DNA of 64,000 bases from Agromyces tardus. GTDB taxonomy: Bacteria; Actinomycetota; Actinomycetes; Actinomycetales; Microbacteriaceae. The notes under the pieces are model-generated. The model did no database searches, had not been told where the DNA came from, and worked only from the letters and a program-made list of their open reading frames with translations. A program made the translations under genes and the position numbers. This document shows positions 4,405 to 58,530 of the stretch, piece by piece; the first letter of the stretch is position 1, and each line of letters opens with the position of its first letter. The stretch covers positions 62,001 through 126,000 of the forward strand of contig NZ_RHHB01000004.1 of NCBI RefSeq assembly GCF_003710805.1. The letters run 5' to 3'.

Positions 4405-6279
4405 ATGGACCACAAGCCGGCCACCCCGTCGATCGAGGCCGCGCACGCTGCACTGCTCGGGAGCCTGCCTTTCGCCGATCGCCAGGACTTCGAGGACGCG
4501 GACCGCGGATTCCTCGGCGCGCTCGACCCCGGGGTCGTGCACGCGGCCGACGGCCGGGTCGTCTGGGACAACGACGCCTACGGGTTCCTCGCGGGCGACG
4601 CGCCGACCACGGTGCATCCGAGCCTCTGGCGTCAGTCGCAGCTGGCCGCGCGGCAGGGGCTCTACGAGGTCGTCGAGGGCATCTACCAGGTGCGTGGGCT
4701 CGACCTCTCGAACGTCACCTTCGTCGAGGGCGACACGGGCGTGATCGTCATCGATCCGCTCATCTCGACCGAGACCGCGGCGGCCGCGCTCGGGCTCTAC
4801 CGCACGCACCGCGGCGACCGGCCCGTCGTCGCGGTGATCTACACGCACAGCCACGTCGACCACTTCGGCGGCGTCTTCGGCGTGACCTCGCAGGCCGACG
4901 TCGACGCGGGACGCGTCGCCGTGCTCGCCCCCGAGGGCTTCGTCGGCCACGCCGTCTCCGAGAACGTCTACGCGGGCACGGCGATGGCACGGCGCGCGGG
5001 CTACATGTACGGGGCGGCGCTCGAGCGCGGCCCACGCGACCAGGTCGGCGCCGGGCTCGGGCAGACCACCTCGGCGGGCGAGGTCGGCCTCATCGTGCCG
5101 ACCCTCGAGATCTCGACCACGGGCGAGACGCACGTGATCGACGGCGTCGAGATCGAGTTCCAGATGGCGCCGGGCACCGAGGCGCCCGCCGAGATGCACT
5201 TCTACTTCCCCGGTCGCCGGGCGCTCTGCATGGCCGAGAACGCCACCCACACCCTGCACAACCTGCTCACCCTCCGCGGCGCACTCGTGCGCGACCCGCA
5301 CGTGTGGTCGACCTACCTCACCGAGGCGATCGAGACCTTCGGCGACCGGGCCGACGTGGCCTTCGCGTCGCACCACTGGCCGACGTGGGGCGGCGACCGC
5401 ATCGTCGAGTTCCTCGGCACCCAGCGCGACCTCTACGCCTACCTGCACGACCAGACCCTGCGGCTGCTCAACCGGGGCTTCACGGGCGCCGAGATCGCCG
5501 AGCTGATCGAGCTGCCGCCGGCACTCGAACACGCCTGGAACGCCCGCGGCTACTACGGATCCGTCAGCCACAACGTGAAGGCCGTCTACCAGCGCTACAT
5601 GGGCTGGTTCGACGGCAACCCGGCGCGGCTCTGGCCGCACCCGCCGGCCGAGCTCGCCACCCGCTACGTCGACGCGATGGGCGGCCCGGACCGGGTCGTC
5701 GAGCTCGCGCAGGCGGCGTTCGACGCGGGGGACTTCCGCTGGGCGGCCACGCTCCTCGACCACGCCGTGTTCGCCGACGAGGCGCATTCCGGCGCGCGGG
5801 CGCTGTACGCCGACACGCTCGAGCAGCTCGCCTACGGCGCCGAGAACGGCACGTGGCGCAACTTCTTCCTCTCGGGGGCGACGGAGCTGCGCGAGGGCGC
5901 CTTCGGCACGCCGACGGCCACGAGTGCTCCCGCGATCGTCGCGCAGCTCACGCCGGAGCAGCTCTTCGACGCGATCGCCATCTCGGTCGACGGACCGAGG
6001 GCGTGGGACCTCACGATCGCGCTCGACGTGACCCTCACCGACCTCGATGCCAACTACCGGGCGACCCTCCACAACGGCGTGTTCATCTCCGTCGAACGGG
6101 CAGCGGATGCCGCATCCGCCGACGCCACCGTCACGACCACCAAGCCGCGCCTCATCGCCCTCGTCGGCGGCGACCTCGCCTCGCCCGGACTCGACGTCGC
6201 GGGCGACGCCGGCGTGCTGCAGGCCCTGCTCGGCGTGCTCGACGCCGGCGACCCGTCGTTCGCGATCGTGACGCCGTAG
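4405..6279 (+). CDS. MBL-fold alkyl/aryl sulfatase (SdsA1/BDS1-like)
   Basis: 624 residues, typical length for zinc-dependent alkyl sulfatases that hydrolyse sulfate esters such as dodecyl sulfate to alcohol plus sulfate. The metallo-beta-lactamase motif THSHVDH gives zinc ligands H148, H150, D152 and H153. AENATHTLHN carries the next family motif. The central part has the helical dimerisation region, and the last 120 residues form an SCP2-like domain (LTPEQLFDAIAISVDG onward). No signal peptide is visible, whereas secreted homologues have one. The start has GAGGA at 4396. Downstream of SulP and GAP genes on the same strand, it fits sulfate release, but cotranscription is inference. Confidence 0.92.
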   Translation: MDHKPATPSIEAAHAALLGSLPFADRQDFEDADRGFLGALDPGVVHAADGRVVWDNDAYGFLAGDAPTTVHPSLWRQSQLAARQGLYEVVEGIYQVRGLDLSNVTFVEGDTGVIVIDPLISTETAAAALGLYRTHRGDRPVVAVIYTHSHVDHFGGVFGVTSQADVDAGRVAVLAPEGFVGHAVSENVYAGTAMARRAGYMYGAALERGPRDQVGAGLGQTTSAGEVGLIVPTLEISTTGETHVIDGVEIEFQMAPGTEAPAEMHFYFPGRRALCMAENATHTLHNLLTLRGALVRDPHVWSTYLTEAIETFGDRADVAFASHHWPTWGGDRIVEFLGTQRDLYAYLHDQTLRLLNRGFTGAEIAELIELPPALEHAWNARGYYGSVSHNVKAVYQRYMGWFDGNPARLWPHPPAELATRYVDAMGGPDRVVELAQAAFDAGDFRWAATLLDHAVFADEAHSGARALYADTLEQLAYGAENGTWRNFFLSGATELREGAFGTPTATSAPAIVAQLTPEQLFDAIAISVDGPRAWDLTIALDVTLTDLDANYRATLHNGVFISVERAADAASADATVTTTKPRLIALVGGDLASPGLDVAGDAGVLQALLGVLDAGDPSFAIVTP

Positions 6280-6365
6280 CAGCCCGAACGATACGGGACC
6301 TTCGTCGCGTCGGCGCCAGGCCCCCACGGCTTGAATCGGTTCTGGCGGCCGCGGGGCCGCGCGGA

Positions 6366-6371
6366 TAGTCT
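6366..6371 (+). promoter_or_regulatory. Candidate -10 box for the DUF6325 gene
   Basis: TAGTCT matches the actinobacterial TANNNT -10 pattern and lies 29 bases before the ATG, leaving room for a short leader with the GGGGGAA ribosome site. No convincing -35 is visible. Confidence 0.4.
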
Positions 6372-6400
6372 GCACACACAACGGCCTCAGGGGGGAACCA

Positions 6401-32416: not shown

Positions 32417-33682
32417 GTGGGTGACGTGACCACGCGCGCCGCGATCGAGGCGGTGTGGCGACTCGAGTCCACGAGGCTCATCGCGGCGCTCGTGCGGATG
32501 CTGCGGGACGTCGCGCTCGCCGAGGACGTCGCCCAGGACGCGGTCGTGGCGGCGCTCGCGACCTGGCCCGCCGACGGGATCCCCGACAACCCCGGCGCCT
32601 GGCTCATGACGACCGCGAAGCGGCGGGCGATCGACGTGTTCCGCGCACGCGCCCGGCACGACCGGGCGGCGGAGCTGCTCGCGAACGAGCTCGCCGAGGC
32701 GGTCGACGACGACCCCGGTGCGGGCATCGACCACGTCGAGGATGACGTGCTGCGGCTCATGTTCATCTGCTGCCACCCGGCGCTGAGCGCCGAGGCGCAG
32801 ACGACGCTCACGCTCAAGCTCGTCGCCGGCCTCTCGACGCGTGAGATCGCGCGCGCCTACCTCGCTTCCGAGGCGACGGTCGCGCAGCGCGTGTCGCGGG
32901 CCAAGCGCACCCTCGCCGAGGCGAACGCCGCGATCGAGGAGCCGAGCGGCGCCGAACGCGCGGAACGGCTGGCGGCGGTGCTCGGCGTCGTCTACCTGCT
33001 CTTCAACGAGGGCTACTCGGCGACCGAGGGGGCCGACTGGATGCGTCCGCCGCTCTGCGACGAGGCCCTGCGTCTCGGGCGCATCCTCGCGGCGATCGTG
33101 CCCGGCGATGCCGAGGTGCTCGGGCTGACGGCGCTCATGGAGCTGCAGTCCTCGCGCCTCCGCGCCCGCGTCGGCGCCGACGGGACCCCGGTGCTGCTCG
33201 ACGACCAGGATCGAAGCCGGTGGGATGCCGCGCGCATCCGCCGCGGGCTCGACGCGCTCGCCGAAGCCGAGGCGGTCGCGGGCGACGAGCCCGGCCAGTA
33301 CCTGCTGCAGGCCGAGCTCGCCGCGTGCCACGCCCGCGCCGCGGCATCCGCCGACACCGACTGGATGCGCATCGCCGCGCTCTACGAGCAGCTCGTGCGC
33401 CGCACCGGCTCGCCCGTCGCGGAGCTCAACCGCGCCGTGGCGCTGGGCCGCGCCTACGGACCGGAGGCGGGGCTCGCGCTCGCCGATCAGCTCGTCGACC
33501 ATCCGGCACTCACCGGCTACCACCTCGTGCCGAGCGTGCGCGGCGACCTGCTCGAGCGCCTGGGGCGGCACGCCGAGGCGGCGGCGGAGTTCACCCGTGC
33601 CGCCGCGATGACCGAGAACGCACGCGAGCGCGAGCTGCTCGAGGCGCGCGCCGTCGCGGCGCGGGCGGCGTCGGTCGAGTAG
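32417..33682 (+). CDS. ECF42-group RNA polymerase sigma factor with C-terminal TPR-like extension
   Basis: 421 residues. Sigma2 (AALVRMLRDVALAEDVAQDAVVAALATW and GAWLMTTAKRRAIDVFRA) and sigma4 (TTLTLKLVAGLSTREIARAYLASEATVAQRVSRAKRTL) occupy the first 180 residues. The remaining 240 residues form the long helical TPR-like domain that marks ECF42, including the LFNEGYSAT segment; no separate anti-sigma gene is present, and the extension is thought to be required for activity. GTG start at 32417. The C-terminal SVE plus TAG stop falls in the first unit of the repeat array at 33673. Confidence 0.93.
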   Translation: MGDVTTRAAIEAVWRLESTRLIAALVRMLRDVALAEDVAQDAVVAALATWPADGIPDNPGAWLMTTAKRRAIDVFRARARHDRAAELLANELAEAVDDDPGAGIDHVEDDVLRLMFICCHPALSAEAQTTLTLKLVAGLSTREIARAYLASEATVAQRVSRAKRTLAEANAAIEEPSGAERAERLAAVLGVVYLLFNEGYSATEGADWMRPPLCDEALRLGRILAAIVPGDAEVLGLTALMELQSSRLRARVGADGTPVLLDDQDRSRWDAARIRRGLDALAEAEAVAGDEPGQYLLQAELAACHARAAASADTDWMRIAALYEQLVRRTGSPVAELNRAVALGRAYGPEAGLALADQLVDHPALTGYHLVPSVRGDLLERLGRHAEAAAEFTRAAAMTENARERELLEARAVAARAASVE

Positions 33683-33940
33683 GCCGCAGGCCGTATCGAG
33701 ACCCGGCGGTGGCGTCGGTCGAGTGGCCGCAGGCCGTATCGAGACCCGGTGGCGGCGTCGGTCGAGTGGCCGCAGGCCGTATCGAGACCCGGCGGTGGGT
33801 CTCGATACGGGCTTCGCCCTACTCGACCGGCGGTGGGTCTCGATACGGGCTTCGCCCTACTCGACCGGCGGTGGTCTCGATACGGGCTTCGCCCTACTCG
33901 ACCGGCGGTGGTCTCGATACGGGCGTCGCCCTACTCGACC
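33673..33940. repeat. Intergenic repeat array: three direct then four inverted copies
   Basis: Three copies reading GGTCGAGT(A/G)-GCCGCAGGCC-GTATCGAGACC start at 33673, 33717 and 33760. Four inverted copies, GGTCTCGATACGGGC-TTCGCCC-TACTCGACC, start at 33798, 33836 and beyond, ending at 33940. Units are about 30 bases with a short internal stem and GGCGGT spacers. The first copy supplies the stop codon of the sigma factor gene. This fills most of the 382-base gap to 34065; no gene is visible. Similar sets lie at 29387, 50035, 54630, 57490 and 59583. Confidence 0.9.
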
Positions 33941-34064
33941 GGCGACGTCGAGCGGTGAGGAAAACTCAGTGTCAGCCCCCGGGCCGACGAGTGGCACCAC
34001 CGATGCCGCGGCGGCCTCCCCGTCCTAGCTTCAGGCCATCCCCATCGAGGAAAGGAACGGAGCC

Positions 34065-35055: not shown

Positions 35056-35095
35056 GTGAACGGGCGCGGTGGCATCGGCCACCGCGCCCGTTCAC
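35056..35095 (+). terminator. Rho-independent-type hairpin after the second small secreted gene
   Basis: Eighteen perfectly paired bases (GTGAACGGGCGCGGTGGC at 35056-35073) with loop ATCG. Very stable; no T-tract. Confidence 0.85.
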
Positions 35096-35305
35096 GTTGC
35101 CGGGCCGCACCAGGCACGACGACGCTCAGCACCTCCACTGAGACCGTCCCTCCGGACGGACCGGTGCAGGCGTGGGGGGTCCTCCGAGCCAGCACCCGCT
35201 GCGAGTTCGGTGGTGGCACCTCGCGATCACGGGGCTGGTCCGGATTCCGCGCAACCTGAGGATTCCTACGCTTCGACACATCACAGCTCTCGGAGGGAGA
35301 GGATC

Positions 35306-35866
35306 ATGAACACCAAACGAATCGCCCCGGTGGTCGGGGTGGCGGCGCTGCTGCTCGTGCTGAGCGGATGCGCCGGAGTCGACGGACGCTTCGCCGACAC
35401 GGCGCATGCCGACGCGAGCCAGGCCCGCGTCGAGCTGCGGCTCAGCCAGCAGCGTGCGGCCGCCGCGGCCGAGGTCGCGGAGCTCGTGCGCGGCGTCAAG
35501 GCCGCCGAGTCGCGAACATCCGCATCCACCACGCGCGGCACCGTCGACATGACGGCGCAGGAGCGGATCCGTGTCGCCAAGCAGGCCGAGTCCCGCGCAT
35601 CGGGGAACCTGACACGGGCCCAGGTGCTGCAGGAGGCTGCCGTGCGCGAGTCGTTGGCGTCGCGCATGCCGGGCGATCGGATGCGTTCGATCACGCTCCA
35701 GGAGGAAGCCGTGCGCGAGTCGCTGGAGTCCCGCGCATCGGGCGACGTCATGCGCGCCCAGACGCTCGAGCAGGAGGCCGTGCGCGAGTCGCTGGCGGCT
35801 CGCTCCGGCGACGTGAGCGTGCAGGAGCTCGTCCGCTCGGTCAAGCAGGCCGAGTCCGAGCAGTGA
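35306..35866 (+). CDS. Small lipoprotein with VRESLxxR repeats
   Basis: 186 residues. Lipobox LSGC with Cys 22 after VAALLLVL. The rest is predicted helical and built of repeats: three units of about 22 residues (AAVRESLASR, EAVRESLESR, EAVRESLAAR) that are nearly identical in DNA, plus VKQAES-type motifs (ESRTSAS, RVAKQAESRAS, SVKQAESEQ) shared with the previous protein. GGAGGGAGAGG precedes the ATG. Lipid-anchored outside the membrane. Function unknown; shares vocabulary but not length with the two genes upstream. Confidence 0.75.
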   Translation: MNTKRIAPVVGVAALLLVLSGCAGVDGRFADTAHADASQARVELRLSQQRAAAAAEVAELVRGVKAAESRTSASTTRGTVDMTAQERIRVAKQAESRASGNLTRAQVLQEAAVRESLASRMPGDRMRSITLQEEAVRESLESRASGDVMRAQTLEQEAVRESLAARSGDVSVQELVRSVKQAESEQ

Positions 35867-39173: not shown

Positions 39174-40010
39174 ATGGCCAACACGGCGCGCGGAGCGCAC
39201 ATCCTCATCACCGGCGGCGCAGGCGGCATGGGACGCATGTACGCGGAGCGGGCGGTGGCCGAGGGCGCGGCATCCGTCGTGCTCTGGGACCGCGACGCGG
39301 GGGCGCTCGCCCGCACGGCCGACGAGCTGGGGGCCGCCTCGCGCGGCCGCACGCAGGTGCGCTCGTACGTCGTCGACGTGTCGGAGCTGGGCGCGATCGC
39401 GAAGACCGCGCACAAGGTGCGCCGCGACATCGGCGACCCCGACGTGCTCATCAACAACGCCGGCATCGTCCGCGGCAATCGCTACTTCTGGGAGACCGAC
39501 TCGGGCGACGACACCCGCGCGACGATGCAGGTCAACGCGCTCGCGCCGATGTACGTGACCCGCGAGTTCCTGCCCGCCATGGTCGCCTCGGGCCGCCCCG
39601 CGCGCATCGTGAACATCGCGAGTGCGGCGGGCACGCTGGGCAACCCGCGCATGGCGGTCTACGCCGCGTCGAAGGCCGCGATGATCGGCTGGAGCGACTC
39701 GCTGCGCATCGAGCTCGAGCAGGCCGGGCACGACCACGTGCGTGTCACGACCGTCACGCCGAGCTACATCGCCACGGGCATGTTCGCGGGGGCCCGGGGC
39801 CCGGTGCTCGCGCCCGTGCTCGAGCCGGCCTACGTCATCGACAAGGTGTGGCGGGCGATGCTCGACGGTCGCGCCCTCGTGGAGCTCCCAGCGAGCGTGC
39901 GGCTCTCGCGGGTGCTGCGCGGCATCCTGCCCACTCGAACGTTCGACCGCCTCATCGGACACGGCCTCGGCATCTACCGCTCGATGGAGGAGTACACCGG
40001 GCGCGGATGA
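39174..40010 (+). CDS. SDR family oxidoreductase (FabG/retinol-DH-like)
   Basis: 278 residues. TGGAGGMG cofactor loop, NNAGIV, and catalytic Ser (NIASAAG), Tyr and Lys (YAASKAA). The C-terminal extension after residue 200 (AYVIDKVWRAMLDGRALVELPASVRLSRVLRGILP) matches SDRs that act on lipids or steroids near the membrane. GAGAAT lies six bases before the ATG. Substrate unknown. Confidence 0.9.
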   Translation: MANTARGAHILITGGAGGMGRMYAERAVAEGAASVVLWDRDAGALARTADELGAASRGRTQVRSYVVDVSELGAIAKTAHKVRRDIGDPDVLINNAGIVRGNRYFWETDSGDDTRATMQVNALAPMYVTREFLPAMVASGRPARIVNIASAAGTLGNPRMAVYAASKAAMIGWSDSLRIELEQAGHDHVRVTTVTPSYIATGMFAGARGPVLAPVLEPAYVIDKVWRAMLDGRALVELPASVRLSRVLRGILPTRTFDRLIGHGLGIYRSMEEYTGRG

Positions 40011-40115
40011 CGCGCCGCGACGCTCCGGCGCCGCGATGCGCACGGGGTGGCGATCTCTGCGAGGGGCGTGACCCGCACGCGGTGGTCCCGGTAGCGTGAG
40101 CCCGGGAGGACCGCG

Positions 40116-40922
40116 ATGCAGGACACGGGTTCCACGGTGGTGGGCGACGACGCGGATGCAGGTCGCCGGCTCCGCACGGTCGACGCGCTCGTCGGCATCG
40201 CGTACGCCGTGCAGGCGGTCATCGTGGGCGTCGTGGTGTCCACCGTCGGGGCGCGGGTGCTGCTGCCCGTCACGGCCACGTTCACAGCCGGCCCGACCGG
40301 TGCGTCGTCGGAGCAGCGCGTGCACGTCGACATCGCCGCCGTCGACCTCGGAGTCGCGGTGCTCGTGCTCCTCGCGGCGGGCGCGATCGTGCGCTTCGCC
40401 CTCCTCGTGCCGGCGCTCGCCGTGCGCCGCAGCGAGGCGACCGCCGTGGGGCGCAACACGGTGCGGTGGGCGGAGTGGTCGCAGGTCTCGGCCGTCACGG
40501 TCTTCCTCGTGGCCCAGCTGAACGGCATCACGGAGGTCACGTCGCTCGTGCCCGTCTACGCGATGACCGCGTCCGCGGTGCTGCTCCTGGCCCTGCAGGA
40601 ACGGTCGGGCGGCGGCGCGGCCGGGCGTCGCCTCGCCGCGGTCGCGGCGGTCGTCGGCATCGTGCCGTGGGGCGTGATCGCGTTCGCCCAGATCGGCGCG
40701 ACCGTCACGAGCGGCGCACCCGCGGTGACGGTGCGCATCATCACCCTCGCGATGCTCGCGATCGCCGTCGCCGTGTGGGCGTTCGTCTGGCGGGCGGGTC
40801 GACGGCCGGTGGCGGCATCCGGGGTGGCCGACGAGGTGACCTACCTGGGCGTGGCGCTGCTCGGCACCGGAACCTTCGCGTGGCTCGCGGTCGGCGGCAT
40901 CGTGCTGCCGAGCGCGCTCTGA
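40116..40922 (+). CDS. Heliorhodopsin-like 7TM protein lacking the retinal-binding lysine
   Basis: 268 residues, seven hydrophobic segments. Against the heliorhodopsin HeR-48C12 as I remember it, LLPVTATFTAGPTGA, NTVRWAEWS, AQLNGITEV, LALQER, VVGIVPW and AWLAVGGIVLP align block by block. R117 and E120 of RWAEW match HeR Arg104 and the Schiff-base counterion Glu107. In helix 7 the expected Schiff-base Lys is T251 (VALLGTGTFAW, aligned on the conserved E, Y and AW), so covalent retinal seems impossible. HeR His23 and His80 are also replaced. GGGAGGA precedes the ATG; TAGCGT at 40092 is a likely -10. Family call is firm on pattern; light function is doubtful. Confidence 0.8.
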   Translation: MQDTGSTVVGDDADAGRRLRTVDALVGIAYAVQAVIVGVVVSTVGARVLLPVTATFTAGPTGASSEQRVHVDIAAVDLGVAVLVLLAAGAIVRFALLVPALAVRRSEATAVGRNTVRWAEWSQVSAVTVFLVAQLNGITEVTSLVPVYAMTASAVLLLALQERSGGGAAGRRLAAVAAVVGIVPWGVIAFAQIGATVTSGAPAVTVRIITLAMLAIAVAVWAFVWRAGRRPVAASGVADEVTYLGVALLGTGTFAWLAVGGIVLPSAL

Positions 40923-40955
40923 CCGGACGCGGTCTCCGGAGGCCGGCACACGTCG

Positions 40956-41402
40956 TCAGCCGCCTCCCTTGTCCTTGCCCTTCCCGCCCTTGTCGTCCTT
41001 GTTGCCCTTGCCGTCGCTGTTGCCCGGGGCGTCGTCGGCCGGCTCCTCCGTCGGCGTCGGCTCGGCGGTGGGCGGCGGCGTCGCGGCGGCGATGGATGCC
41101 TCGAGGTCGGCGCGCACGAGGGCGATCGCCTCGCGGATCTGGTCGGCGCGAGCGGGGTCGACCGTGCCGGCCGCCACGGCGGCGTCGACCTCCGCGGCCA
41201 GGGCGTCGAGCTGGGCGAGCGCCCCGGCGTAGTCCTCGGCGACCGAATGCGTCGCGATCGTCGCGACCTGCGCGCGGAACGCCGCCGAGGTGTCGGCGCC
41301 GATCTCGGGGTCGGCGGCGCACGACGCGAGTCCGCCGATGAGGCCGAGCGCGACGGATGCCGCGACCAGCGTGCGCCGCAGCCGGTACGTCTTCGCGGTC
41401 AA
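40956..41402 (-). CDS. Lipoprotein encoded behind the protein kinase
   Basis: 148 residues. A TTG start at 41402 overlaps the kinase stop (TTGA) and has GGAGG eight bases upstream. Lipobox LASC after LVAASVALGLIGG. The middle is helical (AFRAQVATIATHSVAEDYAGALAQLDALAAEVDAAVAAG), followed by a Thr/Pro/Glu linker and a charged tail DGKGNKDDKGGKGKDKGGG that may contact the cell wall. Probably the extracellular partner or sensor element of the kinase; no known family. Confidence 0.75.
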   Translation of the reverse strand: MTAKTYRLRRTLVAASVALGLIGGLASCAADPEIGADTSAAFRAQVATIATHSVAEDYAGALAQLDALAAEVDAAVAAGTVDPARADQIREAIALVRADLEASIAAATPPPTAEPTPTEEPADDAPGNSDGKGNKDDKGGKGKDKGGG

Positions 41403-42736
41403 GGCGTCACCGCCTCCTCCAGCTGTTCGAGGTGCGTGCCGAGCTCGCCCGGGACGCTCGGCAGCGGCGTCTCGCTCGGCGCGGGCTCGCCGGCCACGCT
41501 GCTCGCGATCGTCGGCACGATCATCACGACGAGGGCGAGGGCGAGCGCGACGAGGCCCGCGGGCAGCAGCCACCGCGGCATGCGTCGCCGGGCCGGCGCG
41601 CTCGGCCGGGTCGCGTCGGCACCAACGGGCGGTGCGGATGCCGCGACGCCCGGCAGGGCGGCCGGCGCTGTGAGCAGCCGGGTCGCCGCAGTCGGCTGCG
41701 CGGGCAGCACGCGAGTCGCGTCGACCACGTCGTCGTCGGCCCGAGTGGCGCCGGCCGTACCGTCGCCCGGGGCGCCGTCGCCCGTCGCGACGGGCATCGG
41801 CGCGGCGAGCAGGCGGGTGCCGTCGTCGGAGTCACCGACGGGGTCGCCGGAGAGGATCGACGTCGCGGCCGCCTCGCGCGCCTCGACCGCGAGCGTGTGG
41901 GCCGTCACGGCCACGTCGAGCGCGCTCGGGCGTCCCGCCGGGTCCCGTGCCGTCATGGCGGCGAGCAGGGCGCACCAGTGCGGCCCGAGCGACGCGGGGA
42001 TCTCGGGGTCGCGCACGAGCCGGGCGCTCGCCGACTCGAGCGCGGGCCCGGGGAAGGACTGCTGCCCGGTGAGGGCCTCGATCATGACGAGGCCGAGCGC
42101 GTAGACGTCGGCCGCCGAACCGACGCGTTCCCCGCGCACCTGCTCGGGGCTGAGGTAGCCCGGCGTGCCGATGATGTGCCCCGTCGAGGTGAGGCGCGAC
42201 TCGTCGAGCAGTCGCGCGATGCCGAAGTCGGCGAGCTTCGCGTTCCAGCGGCGGGTCGGCAGGTGCGCCGTCGAGAGCAGCACGTTGGCGGGCTTCACGT
42301 CGCGGTGCACGATGCCGCGGGAGTGGATCACGTGCAGCCCCTCGGCGAGCTCGGCGAGCACGTCGGCGGCGTCGGCGGACGGGATCGGTCCCGCCAGGAG
42401 CACCTCGCGGAGGTCGCGGCCGTCGACGAGCTCCATCACGAGGAACTCGCGGTCGGTGGCCTCGTCCTTCGCGGCGTCGTACAGGGTCACGAGCGCAGGG
42501 TGCGTGAGGCTTGCGAGCAGCGCGGTCTCGGAGCGGCGCCGGTCGGCGTCGTCGATGCCCTCGGCCGAGGCCCCGAACACCTTGACGGCGACGCGGCGGC
42601 CGAGCACGAGGTCGTCGGCGCGGTAGACGGCCGCCATCCCGCCGCGGCCGATCAGGCCGTCGATGCGGTAGCGACCGTCGAGGATCGCCCCGACGAACGT
42701 GTCTGCCACGGAGTCGCGGCCGGTTTCCGACGTCAT
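41399..42736 (-). CDS. Membrane-anchored Ser/Thr protein kinase (Pkn-type)
   Basis: 445 residues. Gly loop GRGGMAAVY, catalytic K52, HRDVKPAN with D146, DFG (170-172), and GTPGYLSPEQVRG activation end. A disordered Thr/Ala-rich stretch (about 280-370) holds TRLL and TRVL repeats that may be phospho-sites, then one membrane helix (WLLPAGLVALALALVVMIVP, about 378-400) and a short extracytoplasmic tail. No PASTA repeats, so it is not PknB. TACCCT seven bases before the ATG suggests leaderless transcription. Cotranslated with the lipoprotein at 40956. Confidence 0.93.
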   Translation of the reverse strand: MTSETGRDSVADTFVGAILDGRYRIDGLIGRGGMAAVYRADDLVLGRRVAVKVFGASAEGIDDADRRRSETALLASLTHPALVTLYDAAKDEATDREFLVMELVDGRDLREVLLAGPIPSADAADVLAELAEGLHVIHSRGIVHRDVKPANVLLSTAHLPTRRWNAKLADFGIARLLDESRLTSTGHIIGTPGYLSPEQVRGERVGSAADVYALGLVMIEALTGQQSFPGPALESASARLVRDPEIPASLGPHWCALLAAMTARDPAGRPSALDVAVTAHTLAVEAREAAATSILSGDPVGDSDDGTRLLAAPMPVATGDGAPGDGTAGATRADDDVVDATRVLPAQPTAATRLLTAPAALPGVAASAPPVGADATRPSAPARRRMPRWLLPAGLVALALALVVMIVPTIASSVAGEPAPSETPLPSVPGELGTHLEQLEEAVTP

Positions 42737-50034: not shown

Positions 50035-50165
50035 TCCCGCCGGACGGGTCTCGATGCGGCCTCCGGCCTCCTCGACCGGCGGTGTCGTCGGTCGAGGAGC
50101 GCGGAGCGCGTATCGAGATCCGGGCCGGGCGGGTCTCGGTGCGGCCTTCGGCCTCCTCGACCGGC
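50035..50165. repeat. Degenerate intergenic repeat cluster between fgd and ggt
   Basis: Copies of the same family with CTCCTCGACC in place of CTACTCGACC and GATGCGG or GGTGCGG for GATACGG: two in one orientation (around 50047-50083 and 50132-50165) and one inverted (50090-50121). Between convergent genes. The first GGTCGAGTAG lies at the end of fgd. Confidence 0.8.
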
Positions 50166-50176
50166 GGGCGGCGTCG

Positions 50177-57448: not shown

Positions 57449-57489
57449 GCGGTCAACGCTACGCCCGGTCGAACGGGGCTGGGGAGGGT

Positions 57490-57602
57490 GGTCTCGATAC
57501 GGCCTGCGGCCTACTCGACCGGCGGCCCTCGTCGATCGAGAAGCGCGTAGCGCGTATCGAGATCCTGGGTGGTCTCGATACGGCCTGCGGCCTACTCGAC
57601 CG
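57490..57602. repeat. Intergenic repeat pair and stop-codon donor for the ABC ATPase
   Basis: Two GGTCTCGATACGGCC-TGCGGCC-TACTCGACC copies (57490-57520 and 57570-57600) and one inverted degenerate copy between. On the minus strand the right copy provides the TAG of the ABC ATPase at 57592 (PVE then stop). Confidence 0.85.
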
Positions 57603-58530
57603 GTGCTGGGGCGGGGGGAGCGGCGTCCGCGGTCACCTCGGAGAACGCGATGAGCGGGCGCCCGCTCCTGGGGTGCTCGAGCACGGATGCCTCGACGCCC
57701 CACACCTCGCGGATGAGCTCCGTCGTGAGCACCTCCCCCGGCGCGCCGGCGGCGACCACCCGGCCCGCGGCGAGCACCACCACGTGGTCGGCGTAGCCCG
57801 CGGCGAGCGACAGGTCGTGCAGGGCCGCGAGCACCGTGATGCCGTCGTCGGCGAGCCGGCGCAGGAGCGCGAGCATCGTGAGCTGCGCGTGGATGTCGAG
57901 GTGGTTCGTCGGCTCGTCGAGCAGCAGCAGTTCGGGCTCCTGCGCAAGTGCGCGGGCGAGGTTCACGCGCTGGCGCTCGCCGCCCGAGAGCTCATCGTAG
58001 GGGCGGTCGGCGAACTCCGCCGCTCCCGCCGCCACGAGGCTGCGCGCCACGACCGCGCGGTCGTGAGCGCTCGCGGACGCCCACGCCGACTGGTGGGGGA
58101 TGCGTCCGAGGGCGACCACGTCGTCGACGCGGAGTCCCTGCGCGCCGTGCACTTCCTGCTCGGCGAGGGCGATGCGCCGCGCACGGTCGCGACGGCGCAG
58201 CGCGGCGAGGTCGTCGTCGCCGAGCGCGAGCGCACCGGCATCCGCTCGCTCGACACCTGCGACGAGGTGCAGCAGCGTGCTCTTGCCCGCTCCGTTCGGG
58301 CCGAGGAGCGCACCGACGGCCCCGCGCGGCACGGTGATGTCGACGTCGTCGACGATGAGGCGCGATGCGCGGCTGAAGCGCACGCGCGAGCCGCGCAGCC
58401 CCCCGAGCGCGCCGGAACCGGTCGGGTCATCGCTCCGGGCCGTGCCGAAGCCGCCGGAATCCGTGGCGACGCCGCCGCCGGAACCCGTGGCGCCGACGCC
58501 GCCGGCACGCACGCGGACCTCGCCGCTCAC
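57592..58530 (-). CDS. ABC transporter ATP-binding protein (proposed F420-0 importer)
   Basis: 312 residues. GPNGAGKSTLLH Walker A, LSGGERQRVNLARAL signature, LLLLDEPTNHLDIHAQ Walker B, LAALHDLSLA H-loop, the BtuD/FecE class. The first 40 residues are a Gly/Ser/Asp-rich low-complexity extension (GATGSGGGVATDSGGFG). GTG at 58530 overlaps the permease stop. Together with the permease and binding protein it matches the three-gene cassette proposed to import F420-0, and cofD lies upstream. Confidence 0.88.
   Translation of the reverse strand: MSGEVRVRAGGVGATGSGGGVATDSGGFGTARSDDPTGSGALGGLRGSRVRFSRASRLIVDDVDITVPRGAVGALLGPNGAGKSTLLHLVAGVERADAGALALGDDDLAALRRRDRARRIALAEQEVHGAQGLRVDDVVALGRIPHQSAWASASAHDRAVVARSLVAAGAAEFADRPYDELSGGERQRVNLARALAQEPELLLLDEPTNHLDIHAQLTMLALLRRLADDGITVLAALHDLSLAAGYADHVVVLAAGRVVAAGAPGEVLTTELIREVWGVEASVLEHPRSGRPLIAFSEVTADAAPPAPAPVE

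Follow-up and report, generated by a model that had tools for sequence, protein, structure and literature searches.

What could a heliorhodopsin homolog do if it has no lysine to which retinal can be attached? The question is raised by a gene at positions 40116-40922 of a 64,000-nucleotide stretch of the Agromyces tardus genome (hereafter, the window), which an earlier note, made from the letters alone, had read as a heliorhodopsin homolog with a threonine in place of the retinal lysine. The function of heliorhodopsins is poorly understood, and natural relatives that are unable to hold retinal covalently would separate the role of the fold from the contribution of light. Carriers of such genes in 11 genera, including a genome in which no other opsin was found, make such a separation possible. 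The features discussed below are collected in Table 1.

Table 1. Features of the opsin gene and its flanks, in window coordinates
Feature	Position	Strand	Basis
Short-chain dehydrogenase gene, upstream, left flank of the variable site	39174..40010	+	PF00106, synteny
Lysine-less heliorhodopsin homolog, 268 aa	40116..40922	+	ORF, PF18761 74.9 bits, no lysine
R93, helix 2, aligned with His80 of 48C12; may replace the Schiff-base charge	40392..40394	+	Arg in 25/32
R117 (R104 of 48C12), paired with E240 by homology	40464..40466	+	Pairing counts
E120, old Schiff-base counterion (E107 of 48C12)	40473..40475	+	Acid in 28/32
N136, invariant in 32 lysine-less rows	40521..40523	+	Alignment
G186, after VPW	40671..40673	+	Gly in 32/32 lysine-less rows
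E240 (E230 of 48C12)	40833..40835	+	Alignment
T251, aligned with the retinal lysine (K241 of 48C12)	40866..40868	+	Alignments
Downstream ORF, right flank; lipoprotein-like start (by eye), no Pfam match	40956..41573	-	

The gene runs from an ATG at 40116 to a stop codon ending at 40922, with a ribosome-binding-like stretch (GGGAGG) directly 5' of the ATG; a scan for promoters and terminators found nothing. Its product matches the heliorhodopsin family PF18761 at 74.9 bits (cut-off 26.7, E 7.8e-21), and the match is full length, with residues 19-262 lying on profile positions 1-241 of 242. This is the sole family matched in the Pfam scan of the protein, the type-1 rhodopsin family PF01036 being absent, and the gene is the one PF18761 match in the 4.06-Mb genome. 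Among solved structures the top phmmer match is the 48C12 heliorhodopsin (E 1.7e-16). The full-length family match and the best structural match uphold the identification as a heliorhodopsin homolog, and a better match to an unrelated seven-helix family was sought and not found in these searches.

An AF2 model built from five sequences shows, at low confidence (pLDDT 48.4, pTM 0.33), seven helices and a strand pair between helices 1 and 2. Such a strand pair is a heliorhodopsin feature. A fold search with the model returned heliorhodopsins as its first five matches (E 0.011-0.10, none at or below 0.001), which is weak support because the model is poor. A hydropathy scan at a threshold of 1.6 gave six regions, helix 3, with its RWAEW block, lying under the threshold. 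When segments were set by hand for an N-terminus inside, Arg and Lys numbered 13 in the inner and 2 in the outer segments of the window protein, and the same positive-inside pattern was found in 32/32 of the lysine-less rows described below. As read from the sequences, this is the charge pattern of an inverted topology, with the N-terminus predicted to be inside.

In the phmmer alignment against solved structures, K241 of 48C12 falls on T251 of the window protein, and the register is the same when the lysine-less alignment is compared profile to profile with the canonical one (E 1.1e-35; E 1e-37 for the comparison to 48C12). Where heliorhodopsins have the SxxxK motif of helix 7, the window protein has A247 and T251. 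It contains no lysine anywhere, so the claim of lysine loss is independent of the alignment and no realignment could restore a Schiff base; misalignment was rejected on this ground. The earlier assignment of a threonine to the Schiff-base column is thereby borne out, and so are the R117 and E120 that it had picked out in RWAEW, on which R104 and E107 of 48C12 fall in the phmmer alignment. Judged from its residues, the protein is one that cannot bind retinal covalently.

The window gene does not stand alone. PF18761 matched in 80 of the 398 genomes of a Microbacteriaceae sample. By score the matches form two classes: the 66 canonical genes all reach at least 276.9 bits, and the 28 divergent genes score no higher than 132.4 bits, three of the latter (in G257, G301 and G063) lying under the Pfam cut-off at 22.9-24.9 bits. 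The helix-7 lysine is kept in all 66 canonical genes, each readable through helix 7; a 67th canonical-looking piece (L205, 129.1 bits), whose contig ends before helix 7, was left out of the canonical count. We assembled a lysine-less set of 33 genes, consisting of the window's, the 27 other divergent ones, and five named from Microbacterium and Labedella. Frames are open in 32 of the 33. The remaining gene, L036 (positions 5578-6396, Microbacterium schleiferi), is broken before helix 7, its near copies L032 and L033 being open; it was left out of counts and trees, leaving 32 rows.

Lysine stands at the retinal column in none of the 32 divergent genes readable in helix 7, and threonine, the residue noted earlier for the window protein, stands there in nine (the others being P 6, A 5, V 3, S 2, G 2, F 2, L 2 and R 1). 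Twenty-two of these proteins have no lysine at all, and the other 10 have one each, none in helix 7. For all but one of the 32, PF18761 is the single family matched. Identity to the window protein ranges from 24 to 45%, the nearest relative being L038 at 45%, and the 28 carriers of the family sample are spread over 11 genera. A subfamily profile run on a 140-genome family sample found the Labedella gene (G166) and a gene of a further genus (G155), both missed by PF18761, so that the family counts are lower bounds; the latter gene (L226), also lysine-less, is in no table.

In an unrooted tree of 84 rows, in which the program flagged long branches, the 32 lysine-less rows are split from all other rows by a branch with 100/100 support, present in 100% of 200 bootstrap trees. 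A second unrooted tree, to which 29 phylum rows, 48C12 and TaHeR were added and from which six long-branch lysine-less rows were removed, again places the 26 lysine-less rows on one side of a 100/100 branch, with the archaeal TaHeR among the canonical rows. On these trees the window protein is a member of a separate lysine-less subfamily within the Microbacteriaceae. The decay of one isolated gene was ruled out, as none of the 32 divergent members has the lysine and they share a separate 100/100 branch. Since TaHeR and the canonical rows read have the lysine, its loss would be favored over its never having been gained.

Among the order and phylum matches read, no lysine-less match was found outside the Microbacteriaceae. 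The subfamily profile matched 26 of 396 genomes in the order sample, the window's included, and lysine was present in 25/25 matches outside the window's genome, one of the 25 coming from the same family (L072, the same gene as L093, which has the lysine, and L089, with no match, are not in this set). The phylum sample gave matches in 104 of 376 genomes, again counting the window's; lysine was present in 29/29 of those read, the best 29 of the 103 other matching genomes. Two scans of viral contigs turned up no relatives. In the 52-row canonical comparison used below, one of the 22 “order” rows (L066) belongs to the same family and is also counted, as L178, among the 66 canonical genes.

The lysine is not the only cavity residue to have changed. 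Across the 52 canonical rows there is no variation at H23, H80, R104, E107, S111, N138, W173, S237, K241 or W246 (48C12 numbering). In the 32 lysine-less rows, H23 is lost in 29 and kept in 3; N138 is replaced in all 32 by Thr, Ala, Gly or Ser; S237 is often replaced; and W246 is retained in 17. The site of His80, His in 52/52 canonical rows, is Arg in 25/32, with His 2, Gln 2, and one each of Ser, Leu and Trp in the others. The counterion site E107 stays acidic in 28 rows (Glu 24, Asp 4). The window protein is changed at H23, S76, H80, S111, N138 and S237, having Y30, R93 and T151 at the first, third and fifth of these, and has the counterion Glu in helix 3 (E120) plus an Arg three residues earlier (R117). 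Directly after VPW, the 52 canonical rows have I, L or V, and one canonical phylum row (L128) has Gly. With the remainder of the cavity rebuilt as well, the protein should not be seen as a light sensor in which a single residue was exchanged.

Some of the changes go together. An acid is present at 107 in 25/25 lysine-less rows with Arg at 80 versus 3/7 without it (Fisher p 0.001, kinship ignored), and an acid is present at 230 in 21/23 rows with R104, whereas 9/9 rows without R104 lack it (p 2e-6, kinship likewise ignored). The four rows without a counterion acid are one three-row clade and one further row; L050, L054 and L056 keep the acid despite having no Arg at 80. For TaHeR, a published description places two pairs in the cavity, Schiff base/Glu-108 and Arg-105/Glu-227, surrounded by His-23 and His-82 (PMC9385722); the equation of His-82 with His80 of 48C12 is our mapping. 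By comparison, the R117/E240 pair is kept in the window protein, and the pair of Schiff base and counterion seems to have been replaced by R93-E120.

The reading we prefer, and to which we would give about an even chance, is that the window gene encodes a membrane protein of heliorhodopsin fold, N-terminus inside, which does without covalent retinal through an R93-E120 charge swap and acts independently of light via its cytoplasmic loops. The helix-2 arginine R93, at the old His80, would reach into the cavity in place of the protonated Schiff base and pair with the old counterion E120 beside the kept R117/E240 pair, and this pairing would let the helix bundle keep its charge balance without a chromophore. 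Given the pLDDT and pTM of the model, the R93-E120 contact is one that we infer. Freed from retinal, the protein may serve as a light-independent membrane partner or sensor, with a small molecule, pH or membrane state as candidate inputs. The replacement of Schiff base-Glu107 by Arg93-Glu120 is a testable prediction. A second reading, possible but distinctly less probable in our estimation, is that a subfamily of type-3 opsins has turned into a chromophore-free receptor, with R93 as a built-in charge and the cavity rebuilt for a different input.

How does the protein compare with known systems? Like the heliorhodopsins of PF18761 (48C12, TaHeR), it shows full-length homology and the charge pattern of inverted topology, and keeps R104, E107, E230 and the VPW motif; unlike them, it has no retinal lysine, has a changed cavity, scores under the NCBIfam equivalog cut-off, and belongs to rows that branch apart from the canonical rows, TaHeR and 48C12. 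Lysine-less opsins as such are a known idea. In a 2016 article, lysine-less type-1 opsins of haloarchaea and fungi are proposed as sensors of non-light stimuli (PMC4915679); these share the missing lysine with our set but belong to the type-1 family. FArhodopsins, described in PMC10308929, are freshwater lysine-less bacterial opsins with Thr among the replacements and genes that adjoin flotillin, and the same text cites Rh-noK, another lysine-less bacterial opsin. Both resemble the present proteins in being bacterial and lysine-less and differ from them, by that account, in being type-1 relatives of proteorhodopsin and xanthorhodopsin. A lysine-less set is now found in a third family, the heliorhodopsins.

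A precedent for action without light may be sought in AbHeR, which, according to PMC9529153, raised the kcat/Km of glutamine synthetase 1.52-fold in the dark and 2.24-fold in the light in vitro. Its authors conclude there that binding raises enzyme activity even in the dark, and state from a growth test that AbHeR was unable to regulate the enzyme when it harvested no light, so that the precedent cuts both ways. AbHeR resembles the protein we propose in that it is a heliorhodopsin whose inner loops act on an enzyme of the cytoplasm, in part without light. It is unlike it in that it binds retinal, in that light strengthens the effect, and in that its binding-essential lysine, as reported in the same text, has no counterpart in the lysine-free window protein; the lysine-less genes, moreover, are known here without a partner enzyme.

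We found no published report of lysine-less heliorhodopsins in a search outside which most subscription papers, preprints and supplements lay. A 2021 survey of heliorhodopsins retained a sequence only if its helix 7 carried SxxxK (PMC8612252), and a 2022 survey admitted only sequences with the helix-7 lysine (PMC9601134). As both required the lysine, the present group would have been excluded, which exposes a blind spot of lysine-filtered surveys. If the second reading, that of a chromophore-free receptor, is true, these proteins would be to the type-3 family what the opsins proposed to sense non-light stimuli are to type 1, and would have been missed because the surveys required lysine.

Could the protein still be a light or retinoid sensor that binds retinal or a carotenoid noncovalently? 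We searched 54 genomes for BCD and for PF01036, matching the former in 24 and the latter in 42. BCD is present in 18/28 lysine-less carriers versus 6 of the 26 canonical-only genomes tested (of 52), so retinal should be at hand in most carriers, a point against our preferred reading; PF01036 is present in 23/28 carriers and in 19 of the 26. However, the BCD excess may be kinship only, the cavity residues H23, H80 and N138, and often S237, are replaced, and 5/28 carriers have neither BCD nor PF01036. The window's genome is among the five, with no match to PF01036, a canonical heliorhodopsin or BCD, although uptake of retinal is compatible with a missing BCD. We regard noncovalent binding as unlikely.

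Equally doubtful, in our view, is a structural or assembly subunit that would partner other opsins or membrane proteins without receiving any input itself. A canonical heliorhodopsin gene does occur in 10/28 lysine-less carriers, and similar speculation about Rh-noK is quoted in PMC10308929. The other 18 carriers lack a canonical gene, however, and no other opsin was found in the window's genome. Across the lysine-less loci there is no common neighbor that would name a partner, which counts against our preferred reading; neighbors differ between genera, and the widest shared clusters of neighbor genes fall mainly in one genus (g75).

A third rival, which we likewise consider improbable, is that the lineage has no settled function and is heading to loss under relaxed constraint. 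Several observations would fit it: the gene is patchy, with a heliorhodopsin match in 1 of 60 genomes of the genus by Pfam and by the subfamily profile alike; branches are long; L036 is interrupted; and conservation at helix 7 and W246 is slack in some members, as would be expected where constraint is relaxed. In eight lysine-less pairs, dN/dS by an NG86 script was 0.19, 0.22, 0.26, 0.29, 0.36, 0.41, 0.46 and 0.56, with a strong GC bias affecting dS. The upper value, together with L036 and the loose helix 7 and W246, also counts against our preferred reading. On the other hand, dN/dS is below 1 in 8/8 pairs, frames are open in 32 of 33 genes, and N136, G137, VPWG and A189 are invariant even at 24-45% identity to the window protein. 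Over the 32 rows, 12 columns are invariant: M1, N136, G137, A149, V183, P184, W185, G186, A189, T210, L214 and R226. The pairs are all lysine-less and do not include the window gene, which has no close relative to pair with; selection is thus indicated to act on the protein in relatives of the window gene. The earlier note had held that the sequence was not random decay because the counterion is kept. That conclusion stands on the existence of the group, the dN/dS values and the paired changes, but the kept counterion does not carry it alone, as 4/32 members have lost the acid.

Alignment error or membership in an unrelated seven-helix family has next to no chance: the score for NCBIfam NF038020 (heliorhodopsin HeR, equivalog) does fall under the cut-off, at 74.2 versus 100 bits, but the full-length Pfam match, the profile match to 48C12 (E 1e-37), the 31 of 32 members that match PF18761 only and the absence of any lysine led us to discard it.

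How the light-independent protein we favor came to this genome can be read in part from its flanks, the dehydrogenase gene and the downstream ORF of Table 1. Among 12 relatives, six (L157, L158, L160, L161, L162 and L164) have 6-161 bases between the flank matches and four (L165-L168) have about 850-1010; L159 shows no match for the right flank itself, the next match being about 1.7 kb on, and in L163 the dehydrogenase alone is matched. By eye, four of the gaps (L159, L165, L166 and L168) contain a frame for a hydrolase, and that of L167 contains one for a GNAT protein; Pfam confirms Abhydrolase_1 in L165 and Acetyltransf_1 in L167. Within the genus, then, the site at 40011-40955 is nearly empty in some genomes and in others carries a hydrolase gene, a GNAT gene or the window opsin. 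None of the relatives read has a diverged opsin copy there, having almost nothing or another gene instead. Because the site between the flanks varies, the opsin gene was probably gained by the window's lineage.

Elsewhere, a tRNA-Met gene is found in nine of the fetched lysine-less loci, and in five of them (L052, L053, L057, L059 and L060) no more than about 35 bases separate it from the opsin gene downstream. The window also contains short repeats, both in tandem and dispersed, that share a GGTCTCGATACGG...CTACTCGACCGG core (33682-33945, 50039-50167 and 57482-57606), and three imperfect repeats at 69-base spacing (35588-35803) within an ORF at 35069-35866.
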